A DNA stretch of 64,000 nucleotides from Posidoniimonas polymericola (GTDB taxonomy: Bacteria; Planctomycetota; Planctomycetia; Pirellulales; Lacipirellulaceae). Location: the NCBI RefSeq assembly GCF_007859935.1, contig NZ_SJPO01000001.1:372001-436000 (forward strand). The letters run 5' to 3'. The notes below the pieces were generated by a model that was not told the DNA's origin, searched no databases, and saw only the letters and a list, made by a program, of their open reading frames with translations. Made by a program: the position numbers and the translations under genes. Each line of letters starts with the position of its first letter. The stretch's first letter is position 1. Of this stretch, positions 30,323 through 51,565 are shown in pieces.

Positions 30323-31459
30323 TTACTCGATCCACCCGCCACCGAGCACTCGCTCGCCTTCGAAGCAGACCACCGCCTGGCCGGGGGCGACGCCGAACTG
30401 GGGCGTTTCGAATCGCACGCTCAGCTTGTTGTCGGCGAGCACGGTCAGCTCGGCCAACGCCGGCTTGGCGTTGTAGCGGATCTGCGCCAGGCAGCGGCGC
30501 TGCTCGCCGGGGGTCACGTCCACCAGCCAGTTGGCGCCGCTGGCGGTGAGCTGCGTCGAGTCGAGCGCCGCGCGATCGCCCAGCACGACGCGGTTTGTGT
30601 CGGGTTCGATCCGCACGACGAACGCCCGCTCGCCGAGCGCGACGCCGAGCCCCTTGCGCTGGCCGACCGTGAAGCCCTCGATGCCGTTGTGCCGGCCGAC
30701 GACGCGGCCGTCGGTGGTGACCAGCTCGCCGGCGCGGCCGCCGGCGTCCGAGTTGTTCTGCTCGAGTCGGCGGCGGACAAACTGGTCGTAGCGGCCGCTG
30801 GTGACGAAGCAGATTTCTTGGCTGTCCTTCTTCTCAGCGACGTTCAGACCGATGCCGGCGGCCAGCTCGCGGATCTTCGGCTTCTCGAAGCCGCCGACCG
30901 GCAGCAGCATCCGCGACAAGTCGCGGCGCTTAATGCCGAAGAGCACGTAGGATTGGTCCTTTGCTTGGTCGATTCCGCGGAGCAACGCCGGTTCGTCGCC
31001 GGAGCTATCGATCCGCGCGTAGTGGCCGGTCGCGACGTACTTGGCGCCGACCGAGTCGGCGTAGTCGAACAGCTTGCCGAACTTGATCCAGTTGTTGCAC
31101 TGCACGCACGGGTTGGGGGTCCGCCCCCGGGCGTACTCGGCGGCGAAGTAGTCCATGATCTGGCCGAACTCTTCGTTCAGGTCCAGGGCATAAAAGGGGA
31201 TGCCCAATCGGTCGGAGACCCGCCGCGCGTCCTCGGCGTCGGCGGCGGTGCAGCAGCCCTGCTTGTGGTCCAGGCGGTTGACGATCGGCAGCGAGCCCAC
31301 GCCCGTGGGGGCCGGGCCCTCGTCGGTGGAGCAAACGGCCGGCGACTGCTCGCCGTGCCGCATGAACACGCCGATCACTTGGTGGCCGGCCTCGAGGAGC
31401 AGGTGCGCGGCGACGCTCGAATCAACGCCGCCGGACATGGCTAGGACAACGAGGGGCAT
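30323..31459 (-). CDS. mnmA: tRNA-specific 2-thiouridylase
   Basis: The 378-residue cytoplasmic enzyme makes 2-thiouridine at U34 of tRNAs for Lys, Glu and Gln. The PP-loop is AMSGGVDSSVAAHLL at the N-terminus, followed by PNPCVQCNNWIKFGKL with the catalytic Cys, YVATGHYARI, and the second Cys in SQEICFV. Length and motif order match MnmA. It is read divergently from prfB, so tRNA modification and translation termination share a 139-bp promoter region. The 3' end abuts a REP hairpin only 3 bp after the stop codon. Confidence 0.95.
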   Translation of the reverse strand: MPLVVLAMSGGVDSSVAAHLLLEAGHQVIGVFMRHGEQSPAVCSTDEGPAPTGVGSLPIVNRLDHKQGCCTAADAEDARRVSDRLGIPFYALDLNEEFGQIMDYFAAEYARGRTPNPCVQCNNWIKFGKLFDYADSVGAKYVATGHYARIDSSGDEPALLRGIDQAKDQSYVLFGIKRRDLSRMLLPVGGFEKPKIRELAAGIGLNVAEKKDSQEICFVTSGRYDQFVRRRLEQNNSDAGGRAGELVTTDGRVVGRHNGIEGFTVGQRKGLGVALGERAFVVRIEPDTNRVVLGDRAALDSTQLTASGANWLVDVTPGEQRRCLAQIRYNAKPALAELTVLADNKLSVRFETPQFGVAPGQAVVCFEGERVLGGGWIE

Positions 31460-31598
31460 GGGCTCGTGGTAGGGGTATAGGAACGAATTGCCTTCATCTT
31501 AGCCCAGCCCGCCAGAGTTGGGACCGGCGCCCTCGCAGCTTTCCGCCAGCGCGCCTACAATGCTCAATCCCAACCGCACCGAGTAGGAGGCAAACTAG

Positions 31599-47717: not shown

Positions 47718-48296
47718 CTAGCTAGCAACAATCTCGAACGCCCACCGCGGGTCGCCCTCGGAGCGTTCGCCTGGCGCCAACACTACCGAGCGGTCTGCCA
47801 GCATCACCTGCGCGGTGGGGTGGCCCTCGATCCCGACCGGCCGGACGACCGCCGTCGGCCTGCCGCTGATTTGCAGCGTCAGCTCTCCGCCGGCGAGCGT
47901 CGCCTCGACGCCCTCGCCGAGCTTGTACTCGGCGGCCACGTGTCCGCGGGTATGCTTAAGCCGGCAGGCGAGGTCGAACGACAGCCGTCCGCCCGGCGCA
48001 CTTTCGTTGCTGTGGGCCCCGTCGCTGCCAGCATCGATGCCGCCGGCTTCAATGCTGGCCGACCAGTAGCGGCCTTCTGCCATGCCGGTCAGGAAGGCGA
48101 TCGACCCGCCGGTGGGGGTGGGCTGCTCGTAGACTTCCTGGAACACCGGCCCGGTGAGCGGCGGGGTCGGCGCGTGGCACGCCAGCAACTCGGCGCCGCC
48201 GATCAGGTAGCGCTGCAGGAAGCGGTCTCCCTCGAGGCGGAACTCGCCGCTCAGGCTGCCGGTTTGAATCGTTGTCGGGGGCTTGGGCTTGGTCAC
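47718..48296 (-). CDS. Hypothetical protein translationally coupled to a Ser/Thr kinase
   Basis: The 192-residue protein has no signal peptide or membrane segment. It is rich in strands (SLSGEFRLEGDRFLQRYLIG, GRLSFDLACRLKHTRGHVAAEY, EATLAGGELTLQISGRPTAV), suggesting a beta-sandwich. Its ATG overlaps the stop of the kinase gene by 4 bp (48293-48296), so it is made together with the kinase and may be its partner or substrate. I do not recognise the family. Confidence 0.68.
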   Translation of the reverse strand: MTKPKPPTTIQTGSLSGEFRLEGDRFLQRYLIGGAELLACHAPTPPLTGPVFQEVYEQPTPTGGSIAFLTGMAEGRYWSASIEAGGIDAGSDGAHSNESAPGGRLSFDLACRLKHTRGHVAAEYKLGEGVEATLAGGELTLQISGRPTAVVRPVGIEGHPTAQVMLADRSVVLAPGERSEGDPRWAFEIVAS

Positions 48297-50245
48297 GGCT
48301 GGGGTGGGTCTGAAGGTTGCGGCTCAGCGGGGGACGAATCGGCAGATTCTCGCTCGGAGGGCGGCGGCCTGGCAGGCGCCAGTTCGTCCATCAAGGCGTC
48401 GCGACGCTCCTGGCGGAGGCGACGCTGCTCGAAGAAGTTGTCGCGGCGGTTGACGCCCTGCTCGCTCAGCGGACCAAACCGCTCGCCGGGCGGGCGGTTG
48501 TCAAAGTCTGGGGGCGGGCCATCGCCCAGCGGTGGGCCGACCTCGTCTCGCGGTCCGAACCGGTCGCGCGGCCCCAGCCGTCCTCGCCCGCCGGGGGGAG
48601 GCCCCAGGGGTTCGCCGTTGGGGCCCAGTCGCGGCGGCTGCCGGCCGTCTGGCGGCGGGCCCAACCCATGCGGGCCGGGTCCTCGGGGCCCCGATCCCCG
48701 GCGTCCGCCGAACCCGTCTTCAAACTGCCCCTCGAGCGGCGGGGTTCCGTTCGCCCCGTCGCCGGCCGCCCCGGGCTCGCGGAAGTCATTCGGCGGACCC
48801 ATCATCGCGAGCACGCCGAGCACCCCTGCTCCGCCGAGCAGCAGCGCCACCGCCGCGGCGATGGCCGCGGTGCGGTTGGCGGCCAGCCAGCGCTGCGCTT
48901 GGGTCGTGACGCTGGCCGCGGCGATCGCGACCGGCTGATCGACGAGGAATCGCCGCAGGTCGGCCGCCAGCGCGGCGCCGTCGGCGTAGCGGTCGGCCGG
49001 GTCGGCCGCCATCGCCTTGAGGATGATCTTCTCCAGGTCGACCGGCACGCGCGGGTTGAGCTTCCGCGGACGCTCGGGGCGGTGCTCGTTGATCTTCTGT
49101 AGCACCTGGCTGGGGGTCGGCGCCTGGAACGGCGAGCGGAAGGTCACCAGCTCGTACAGCGTCAGCCCGAGCGAGTAGAGGTCCGACTTCGCGGTCGCCT
49201 CGCCGCGGAGCTGCTCGGGCGCCATGTACCGGAGCGTGCCGAGCAGCTCGCCGGTGCGGCTCATGTCGTCCTGGTTGATCATCTTGGCCAGGCCGAAGTC
49301 GGTGACCCACACGCGGCCGCTGCGGTCGAGCAGCAGGTTGGCCGGCTTGATGTCGCGGTGCAGGGCCCCGCGGCCGTGCGCGTAGGCGAGCGCGTCGGCC
49401 GCCTGGGCGCCGATCTTCGCCACGCTGCGGTAGTAGGCGGGGTCGAGCGCGTCGATGTCGACGTTGTCGTCGTCCAGCAGCGATTGGCCCAGCGAACCGG
49501 CCCGCACTGCGCTGGGGAGCGACCCCGACGCGGAGAACGCGATGGTGAGCGCCTCGTCGGAGGCGGCGCTCGGCGTCTGGACCTCGGTGGTCCGGGCGAG
49601 GTCGAAGTCGTCGGTCGCCATGGCCGCGGCCAGGCCGTCTTCGAGGCTGCTCGGGGAGCTGGCTTGGAGGGTCTCGTCGGCGGCCAGGCTGACGCTCGAA
49701 CAGGCGGCGAGGGCGTCGCCCCGCGTGCGGCGGCCGACGTGCCGGGTGAGCACGTCGAGGCCGACGCCGTCGATCCGCTGCATCACCAGGTAGTGCAGGC
49801 CGTCCTGCTCGCCGACGCTGTAGATCGGCACAATGCTGGGGTGCTGCAGCGCGGCGGCGGTGCGGGCCTCGCGGCGGAAGCGTTCGAGCTGCCGGGTGTC
49901 GAACAACGCCCGGCCCGGCAGCACCTTCACCGCCACGCGGCGGCCGAGCGACTCCTGCTCGGCCTCGTACACGACGCCCATCCCGCCGCGGCCGATCTCG
50001 CCGAGGATCCGCAGGTCGCCGAGCCGGTCGGGCGCGTCGAAGTCCCGCGGCCCGATGCTCTGCTTGTCGGGCTTGGCGCTCTCGAGCGCGACGATGGTCG
50101 GGAACAGGTCGCGGATCTCCTCGGCCTGATCCGGGTGCGCGGCGGCGTAGTCCTCTACCGTGACCCGCCGCCCGCGGCGACGGTCCTCCAAGAACTGCTC
50201 GGCGAGCAGCTCGATGGGTTCACGGTTTTCAGTCGGCTCCGACAT
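48293..50245 (-). CDS. Membrane Ser/Thr protein kinase (PknB-like) with Pro/Gly-rich C-terminus
   Basis: The 650-residue kinase has GEIGRGGMGVVYEAE (P-loop), VAVKVLP (K107), HRDIKPANLLL (catalytic loop), DFGLAKM and GTLRYMAPEQLRGE. An insert of about 85 acidic/Ser-rich residues sits between the hinge region and the catalytic loop. The N-terminal 60 residues (AEQFLEDRRRGRRVTVEDYAA) are a common planctomycete lead. A single TM helix follows the kinase (AAIAAAVALLLGGAGVLGVL), then a Pro/Gly/Arg-rich exterior. It probably works with the ECF sigma factor upstream (50906-51565). The leader is occupied by one arm of the GxxExxY inverted repeat, 18 bp from the ATG. Confidence 0.93.
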   Translation of the reverse strand: MSEPTENREPIELLAEQFLEDRRRGRRVTVEDYAAAHPDQAEEIRDLFPTIVALESAKPDKQSIGPRDFDAPDRLGDLRILGEIGRGGMGVVYEAEQESLGRRVAVKVLPGRALFDTRQLERFRREARTAAALQHPSIVPIYSVGEQDGLHYLVMQRIDGVGLDVLTRHVGRRTRGDALAACSSVSLAADETLQASSPSSLEDGLAAAMATDDFDLARTTEVQTPSAASDEALTIAFSASGSLPSAVRAGSLGQSLLDDDNVDIDALDPAYYRSVAKIGAQAADALAYAHGRGALHRDIKPANLLLDRSGRVWVTDFGLAKMINQDDMSRTGELLGTLRYMAPEQLRGEATAKSDLYSLGLTLYELVTFRSPFQAPTPSQVLQKINEHRPERPRKLNPRVPVDLEKIILKAMAADPADRYADGAALAADLRRFLVDQPVAIAAASVTTQAQRWLAANRTAAIAAAVALLLGGAGVLGVLAMMGPPNDFREPGAAGDGANGTPPLEGQFEDGFGGRRGSGPRGPGPHGLGPPPDGRQPPRLGPNGEPLGPPPGGRGRLGPRDRFGPRDEVGPPLGDGPPPDFDNRPPGERFGPLSEQGVNRRDNFFEQRRLRQERRDALMDELAPARPPPSERESADSSPAEPQPSDPPQP

Positions 50246-50262: not shown

Positions 50263-50290
50263 AGAACAGGAGGGAGCAGAGAGAGCAGAG
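50263..50290. repeat. Left arm of 28-bp inverted repeat flanking the GxxExxY gene
   Basis: AGAACAG followed by a 21-bp purine-rich stretch (50270-50290) matches the reverse complement of 50771-50798 at 27 of 28 positions. The innermost 21 bp are identical. The arm ends 10 bp from the GxxExxY stop codon and begins 18 bp upstream of the kinase start. Confidence 0.93.
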
Positions 50291-50300
50291 GAGATAGGGC

Positions 50301-50708
50301 TTAAGATCCTTGGTCGGCGCCGGGGAGCATCAACCTCGAGAGGCCGTCAACCAGTCTCATTGTATTGAAGTTAATGACGAGCCCGAGTGGCATGTCGAGT
50401 AGTTTCATGTAGCTTAGGATCTGAGCTTTGTGGATCGGGACGACCGATTGAGTCGCTTTGACGTCTACCAGCAGGCAATCGTTGATCAGCAGATCGAAAC
50501 GCAGCACTTCTTCGCGAGTGAAATGTTTGTAACGCACCGGCACGTTTTTCTGGGACGCGACGTCGTAGCCGCGCAGCTCGAGTTCCTTTGTCAAGCACCA
50601 CTCGTAAACGGACTCGAGCAGGCCGGGACCCATGGCCGTGTGCACTTCGATAGCGGCGCCGATTACGTCCTGGGTGATTGCCGCCGCGTCTTTGAATTTT
50701 GGGTGCAT
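50301..50708 (-). CDS. GxxExxY family protein, PD-(D/E)XK nuclease-like
   Basis: The 135-residue protein carries the naming motif GLLESVY (G29, E32, Y35). The core then reads RFDLLINDCLLVDVKA, giving D72 and D82-x-K84, with QILSY (Q96-x3-Y100) as in RecB-type nucleases. This indicates a PD-(D/E)XK fold; DNA cleavage is not proven for the family. The gene lies between an ECF sigma factor and its likely kinase partner and is bracketed by 28-bp inverted repeats (50263-50290 and 50771-50798), so it looks like a mobile cassette. It is transcribed in the same direction as its neighbours. Confidence 0.9.
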   Translation of the reverse strand: MHPKFKDAAAITQDVIGAAIEVHTAMGPGLLESVYEWCLTKELELRGYDVASQKNVPVRYKHFTREEVLRFDLLINDCLLVDVKATQSVVPIHKAQILSYMKLLDMPLGLVINFNTMRLVDGLSRLMLPGADQGS

Positions 50709-50770
50709 CTCGCCCGACCCGTCTAACGCCGTTTGTTGGATTTGATCTGGAGCGGGCGTTGCTTCAGAGC

Positions 50771-50798
50771 CTCTGCTCTCTCTGCTCCCTCATGTTCT
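50771..50798. repeat. Right arm of 28-bp inverted repeat flanking the GxxExxY gene
   Basis: Reverse complement of the left arm at 27 of 28 bases; the core 21 bp (50771-50791) is pyrimidine-rich on the plus strand. It lies 62 bp upstream of the GxxExxY start codon and before two small palindromes. Confidence 0.93.
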
Positions 50799-50843
50799 TC
50801 TTCTGTCAATGCTGCCGCCTACGTGAAGGTGTGTTTCCAAATA

Positions 50844-50890
50844 CCTAGGGCGTTGCCCTAGGCTACGTTGAGATTGGCCGTTGGCCAATG
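50844..50890. repeat. Two GTT-loop palindromes, including copy 2 of the 25-bp repeat
   Basis: CCTAGGGC-GTT-GCCCTAGG (50844-50862) is followed directly by the 25-bp repeat 50866-50890 holding ATTGGCC-GTT-GGCCAAT. Both hairpins share the GTT loop. They lie just after the sigma factor gene's 3' end (minus strand). Confidence 0.88.
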
Positions 50891-50905: not shown

Positions 50906-51565
50906 CTACTGGTTCAGCAGCGTCTCCAGGCTTTTCATGCCTGGGATGCTGTCGACGACTTCTTTTAACCGCTTGATCGCGCGGACGTATCGGATGCTGG
51001 CGGCTTTGACTTCGATGCCGAGCGCCTCGGCGACCTCGCCGTTGGTCAGCTCCTCGAAGTGACGCAGGGCGATGATTTCTTGGTCGTTCTCGCTCATCGT
51101 GGCGATCGCCTGCTGGAGCTGCTGGCCGAGCTCCTCGCGGATGGCCGCCTGGCTGGGCGAGGTCAGGTGCCCGAGCAGGCAATCTGCTAAGGAAACGCTG
51201 GTCGCCACGGCGTTTCTACTGGGGACGCGGTGCACCTCGCGGCCGGCGTCCCGCATCTGGGCGCCGACGTGCCGGCGGTGGGCGTCGATCAGGGTCTGGG
51301 TCGAGATCAGCCGCAGCCACACGAACAGGCTGCTGTCGGGGTCCTTTGCGACCGCCTTGCGGAAGTGATCCAAGCGGGTCGACGCCTGCAGGAACGCCTC
51401 CTGCAGGATGTCGTCCGGGTCGAGCCGCCCGCGGAGCCGCCGGTCCATGCGGAACATGACGCCGGTGCGGAGCCGCTCGCGGTGCAGGCTGAACGCCTCG
51501 CCGAGGGCCGCGTCGTCGCCATCGACTAGCCGCTGGCGGAGCTGCTCGTCGGTGGCAGGGGACAT
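50906..51565 (-). CDS. ECF-type RNA polymerase sigma factor
   Basis: The 219-residue protein has region 2 (RLRTGVMFRMDRRLRGRLDPDDILQEAFLQA) and region 4 (MSENDQEIIALRHFEELTNGEVAEALGIEVKAASIRYVRAIKRL), the helix-turn-helix that reads the -35 element. The linker contains PSRNAVATSVSLADCLLG. It resembles planctomycete ECF groups that lie beside Ser/Thr kinases. No anti-sigma factor is encoded; the kinase downstream (48293-50245) is the likely regulator, but the GxxExxY cassette now separates the two genes. Confidence 0.92.
   Translation of the reverse strand: MSPATDEQLRQRLVDGDDAALGEAFSLHRERLRTGVMFRMDRRLRGRLDPDDILQEAFLQASTRLDHFRKAVAKDPDSSLFVWLRLISTQTLIDAHRRHVGAQMRDAGREVHRVPSRNAVATSVSLADCLLGHLTSPSQAAIREELGQQLQQAIATMSENDQEIIALRHFEELTNGEVAEALGIEVKAASIRYVRAIKRLKEVVDSIPGMKSLETLLNQ

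Follow-up and report, generated by a model that had tools for sequence, protein, structure and literature searches.

The REPIN-RAYT systems, in which REP-associated tyrosine transposases occur together with repeats (PMC2817692, PMC3116915), are among the closest described counterparts of the GxxExxY cassettes studied here. In both, a gene of low copy number has the same repeat on either side in opposite orientations, inverted pairs of the repeat without a gene are scattered through intergenic DNA, and gene and repeat co-vary. The enzymes are nevertheless different: that of the GxxExxY cassettes is of the PD-(D/E)XK type (Cas4/RecB-like), whereas RAYTs are IS200/IS605-like HUH tyrosine transposases. 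The arms of the cassettes also consist of tandem units of 8-10 bp without the GTAG or GT(A/G)G head. Those in the window, i.e., the whole stretch of 64,000 nucleotides of Posidoniimonas polymericola DNA that was analysed, start with AACAGGAGG, and those of the family with ACC or AACC. Moreover, in contrast to REPIN-RAYT, several GxxExxY cassettes with individual arms occur per genome, and archaea are included. Having neither the HUH transposase nor the GTAG head that define REPIN-RAYT, the cassettes resemble these systems in behaviour but are not members of them.

The second counterpart is the intervening sequence (IVS) of 23S rRNA. In Coxiella, this element comprises a 28-bp terminal inverted repeat, heptameric repeats and one small ORF (PMC4990558). 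The cassettes share with an IVS carrying an S23p/IVP ORF the small ORF enclosed in terminal inverted repeats with short tandem units. However, the arms of IVP elements have a 7-bp period, their protein has another fold, and RNase III removes the classical IVS from rRNA. The window cassette, for its part, lies between protein genes and encodes a PD-(D/E)XK protein, not S23p/IVP.

Lastly, MITEs and non-autonomous IS derivatives are likewise short and gene-less, with inverted ends identical to those of a gene-bearing copy. Here, in contrast, the gene-bearing copy encodes no transposase of a known class, and the interiors of the GxxExxY mini-elements (the gene-less arm pairs) do not resemble deletion remnants of the gene. 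A classical IS or MITE of a known transposase was considered and rejected: inverted repeats are present, but neither a transposase nor a target duplication was seen. No publication describing a role for the GxxExxY family or for its inverted tandem-unit arms was found; priority is uncertain because most subscription literature lay outside the search. It is probable that the family forms part of a type of small mobile DNA that is widespread and has gone undescribed.

The cassette and its protein

An earlier note on this DNA had reported a GxxExxY gene framed by inverted repeats and placed between an ECF sigma factor and a kinase. Both statements are borne out, and the arms are longer than it gave, with 28 of 29 positions identical and a longest unbroken run of 22, against 27 of 28 and 21. 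The features of the locus are the following:

48293-50245, minus strand: Ser/Thr protein kinase, flanking context outside the cassette
50263-50291, plus strand: arm 1, kinase side; AG followed by three 9-nt units; complementary to arm 2 at 28 of 29 positions
50265-50273: arm 1 unit AACAGGAGG
50274-50282: arm 1 unit GAGCAGAGA
50283-50291: arm 1 unit GAGCAGAGG
50292-50769, no strand: cassette interior; contains the gene, whose two ends are near the arms
50301-50708, minus strand: GxxExxY protein ORF, 135 aa; matches the PF13366 and TIGR04256 profiles
50770-50798, minus strand: arm 2, on the side of the sigma factor; repeats arm 1 in inverted orientation with a single mismatch (AACATGAGG)
50906-51565, minus strand: ECF-type sigma factor, flanking context outside the cassette

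Per 64 kb, about 5e-6 exact inverted matches of 22 nt with halves at most 1.5 kb apart are expected if chance is estimated simply as 4^-22. The runner-up inverted pairs across a 3.5-kb region were just 71-89% complementary. Arm 1 begins 17 nt upstream of the start codon of the kinase. The single ORF between the arms is of the PD-(D/E)XK type, and no transposase is present there. No target-site duplication is visible at the window cassette, in agreement with the earlier note, which had found none to be clear. A second short dispersed hairpin family (CCTAGGGCGTTGCCCTAGG ... GGCCGTTGGCCAAT) lies beside the cassette at 50838-50890 of the window, and is also found at about 356.4 kb of contig G000:C1 (G000 being P. 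polymericola).

The 135-aa ORF matches PF13366 (PDDEXK_3) at 8.6e-36, with 123.3 bits against a cut-off of 22, and TIGR04256 (GxxExxY) at 1.4e-37, with 128.6 bits against a curated cut-off of 35. Judged by sequence, the gene is a clear member of both families. The alignment shows that the PD-(D/E)XK residues are retained (E32, D72 and D82-x-K84, plus Q96xxxY100). The AlphaFold2 model of the protein has a pLDDT of 93. Its best Foldseek match, a weak one, was Cas4 SSO0001 (4ic1), with other RecB-like nucleases also near; no solved structure was found among the sequence relatives of the protein. The protein is predicted to be a minimal nuclease of the Cas4/RecB (QxxxY) type of PD-(D/E)XK enzymes. 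The dN/dS of GxxExxY genes, taken from pairs with unsaturated dS, is about 0.06-0.13. By this measure, the genes are under purifying selection, and certain copies are visibly decaying (in genomes G058 and G098).

Arms, genes and gene-less copies

The arm-gene-arm anatomy is general to the family. For the scoring of arms, the 300 bp following the GxxExxY domain were reverse-complemented and compared to the 300 bp preceding it, with a score of at least 14 required. Inverted arms frame 126 of 151 GxxExxY genes from planctomycetes, many other bacterial phyla and archaea, compared to 0-10% in the controls. In the related-genome set, 30 of 32 GxxExxY loci had arms; among the controls, sigma-factor genes had them in 1 of 29 cases and cross-paired flanks in 9%. 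An additional set gave 38 framed loci out of 40. The distant set, which covers many bacterial phyla as well as methanogenic archaea and was scored with 400-bp flanks, had arms at 58 of 79 loci, the other 21 scoring below 14; its controls gave 10% for cross-paired and 0/63 for displaced flanks. The arms follow a common grammar, namely a start with ACC or AACC and then about three to four tandem units of 8, 9 or 10 bp. IVP four-helix-bundle genes of the same planctomycetes (PF05635, loci L177-L206) are framed by like inverted arms in 22 of 30 cases. The grammar of these arms is otherwise the same, but the tandem unit is strictly 7 bp and thereby matches the heptamers reported for the Coxiella 23S rRNA IVS (PMC4990558).

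The genome of P. polymericola also contains dispersed arm pairs that have the same termini but no gene. The window arm has 23 sites there at three mismatches or fewer, against 0 for a reversed-pattern control. Most of these sites form head-to-head pairs without a gene (at least nine pairs), which sit in intergenic DNA. Three such pairs, folded as single-stranded DNA, gave strong hairpins. The congener (G001), the only other genome of the genus examined, has a sigma factor 92% identical and, at the same locus, one arm and a broken GxxExxY remnant; its one arm site is that remnant itself. The insertion therefore predates the split of both species, and the genus has no empty site at this locus. 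Window-type arm sites were also found in the genomes G006 (7), G013 (9) and G011 (5), and none in the other 20 genomes searched. As predicted, G011 contains a GxxExxY piece with AACAGGAGG arms. The same prediction failed for G006 and G013, where no cognate gene with AACAGGAGG arms was found. Mini-elements can thus persist where no cognate gene is detected.

Arms are specific to their gene. Genes within a single genome differ in arm sequence, and the left and right arms of each match. A score of at least 14 was reached by 96% of own arm pairs and by 3.6% of pairings with arms of other genes of the same genome. The more alike two proteins are, the more alike are their arms (Mantel r=0.48; maximum over 2000 permutations 0.20). 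In Propionivibrio, nearly all units of both gene arms read either CACRGAG or CGCAGAG, depending on the genome. The mini-elements, sampled with a CAC query, show CAC:CGC counts of 15:3 where the gene is CAC-armed and of 3:10 where it is CGC-armed (p=0.0012). Genome G087 is an exception: the resident gene has one unit type and most of the mini-elements have the other. The termini AACCKCTTTCRAC are common to the Propionivibrio mini-elements and the gene-bearing element.

Presence and absence of the cassette at the same site were observed in Thioalkalivibrio and Propionivibrio, but not at the window locus within its genus. In Thioalkalivibrio, seven genomes have a cassette at the fixed site, and in eight this site is empty. 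Off-site arm matches at E<=1e-3 number 3-19 in the filled genomes, and there are none in the eight empty ones. A strict unit pattern gave 9-71 matches in filled and 0-8 in empty genomes; the empty-genome matches listed are a single tandem array. Beside these ranges, G064, a Thioalkalivibrio genome without the gene, has 23, and no cognate gene for its mini-elements was found. Thioalkalivibrio genomes with a single gene nevertheless contain mini-elements of three arm types (A, B and C). The cassette site of Propionivibrio is trpE-trpG. Six genomes with the type-1 gene have about 8-19 off-site matches, compared to 0-1 in genomes with a clean empty site; G086, whose trpE-trpG locus was not found, has 19. 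Shared ancestry could account for the correlation of gene and mini-elements, and its independent support consists of four agreeing sister contrasts: G098/G092, G043/G077 (with a type-2 cassette instead), G089/G102 and G000/G001. The contrast G054/G048 was left out, the G054 locus being a mosaic whose upstream gene is near G056.

Replacement at fixed sites was observed as well. In the Thioalkalivibrio pair G058/G062, the flanking genes are 94% and 91% identical, the GxxExxY genes 65%, and the arms differ; G076 has a third cassette type. In the Propionivibrio pair G043/G077, different cassettes lie between flanks that are 86-88% identical. Going by these alignments, sister species swap whole cassettes, gene and arms together, at one site. 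No exact target site or duplication could be resolved at the Thioalkalivibrio, Propionivibrio and G000/G001 sites, where the flanks are too diverged. A plasmid or phage vehicle was rejected, with matches in 8 of 72,556 plasmids and in no phage record. A broad GxxExxY alignment search returned three viral contigs only.

The suggestion of the earlier note that gene and arms move as a unit is upheld in part. The 21-bp core, which it had proposed to look for at other GxxExxY genes, is absent from both others in the genome, each of which has its own arms. Nor did the empty site sought in close strains appear, the congener having a decayed remnant in the same place. By the note's own refutation test, mobility at the window locus is hence undemonstrated. 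The unit structure itself stands, and the support for mobility comes from the dispersed gene-less copies and from the cassettes present, absent or swapped in other genera.

Proposed movement and possible role of the nuclease

We lean, at somewhat better than even odds, towards reading the window unit as a gene-bearing copy of a small transposable-like element that is REPIN/RAYT-like but would use a Cas4/RecB-type PD-(D/E)XK enzyme, not an HUH transposase. The arms may come out of the duplex as a hairpin or cruciform; alternatively, they may fold at the replication fork while the DNA is single-stranded. The cognate GxxExxY protein would then read the repeated units and cut at the arm base, after which the released piece could be inserted, or copied by repair, into other intergenic DNA. 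Mini-elements would be served in trans and so spread. The gene itself would stay at one or a few sites, where it may be inherited, swapped for other cassette variants or decay. The hairpin at the DNA level, the cut site, and a nuclease that performs or licenses the movement are all steps that we infer. More tentatively, at somewhat less than even chances, the GxxExxY proteins could be the enzymes on which a distinct class of mobile DNA in bacteria and archaea was founded, in which a stand-alone Cas4/RecB-like nuclease recognises tandem-unit arms and propagates mini-elements in trans. The IVP cassettes, including the 23S rRNA intervening sequences, would be a sister class with 7-bp units.

Other machinery, such as host replication and repair or an unlinked transposase, might instead move the arms and mini-elements. 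GxxExxY would then be carried along as a passenger, or would be a domesticated nuclease that processes hairpins and limits palindrome damage. The mini-elements of G064, G006 and G013 without a detectable cognate gene agree with such a division, as do the nesting of several arm types around one another, the IVP four-helix-bundle genes within similar tandem-unit inverted arms, and a Cas4/RecB-like fold suited to hairpin or end processing. We nevertheless regard it as rather unlikely, given that arms correspond to the variant of the gene both inside one genome and across genomes, that the unit type of the mini-elements tracks the resident gene, and that genomes with an empty site have almost no mini-elements.

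The close likeness in layout to the Coxiella IVS (PMC4990558) and the position of the Propionivibrio cassette inside trpE-trpG speak for an element acting at the RNA level. Its arms would pair in the transcript and RNase III would excise the gene from a polycistronic mRNA, hence the kept complementarity. Selection of this kind is poorly compatible with the mismatches between arms, which show no excess of G.U-saved over other changes in the gene-sense transcript (91 vs 101, p=0.52); this lack of bias favours a role or origin at the DNA level. With units of 8-10 instead of 7 bp, gene-less copies that are intergenic and tied to the gene, and no Rfam match, an RNA-level element appears improbable. 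Homing has similarly poor prospects. PD-(D/E)XK homing endonucleases exist, and a nuclease cutting an empty intergenic site, into which recombination copies the cassette, would let cassettes replace each other at one site, in line with the present, empty or swapped cassettes at fixed sites. It would, however, explain neither the tandem-unit arms nor the gene-less copies that carry the same termini at unrelated intergenic sites.

GxxExxY genes are found in many genomes with no assigned role, and our proposal of a nuclease-served mobile element gives them a testable one. It would also explain common intergenic repeats of the CACAGAG, CGCCAAG and CACGAAT types. If the nuclease drives the mini-elements, the combination of a single gene with dispersed inverted pairs evolved at least two times with unrelated enzyme chemistry. 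Furthermore, the pairing of arms and proteins provides ready-made specificity variants for biochemistry.

Positions and nesting of mini-elements

One near-identical mini-element, running from ACC to GGT, occurs in both species of the genus (G000:C1:454411-454481 and G001:C5:230518-230587). A gene starts a short way downstream of it, and the DNA directly outside it is unalignable. Another mini-element of the congener (G001:C5:279601-279748) immediately precedes an mnmA-like gene that begins with MSLVVLAMSGGVDS; the window genome does not have it (corresponding window positions about 31459-31596). A 35-nt inverted repeat of the classical GTAG-REP type (GGTAGGCCGGCAACAAGCGCCAGCG) was found within the loop of a mini-element (L007:1412-1497, at about 292.4 kb of G000:C1).

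In Thioalkalivibrio (L259-L298), mini-elements are nested, with CACGAAG arms outside, an AAGGTC linker and CACAGAG arms inside. At times, ACAGGAAG arms are innermost, and the order varies (L264, L285). In Propionivibrio (L374-L378, L444-L483), all 11 of the 11 element ends located 5-13 nt before a start codon are GAAAGAGGT, which is Shine-Dalgarno-like, while ends elsewhere are usually GAAAGCGGT (difference p=2e-5). The terminus of the element thus seems to serve as the ribosome site of the downstream gene.
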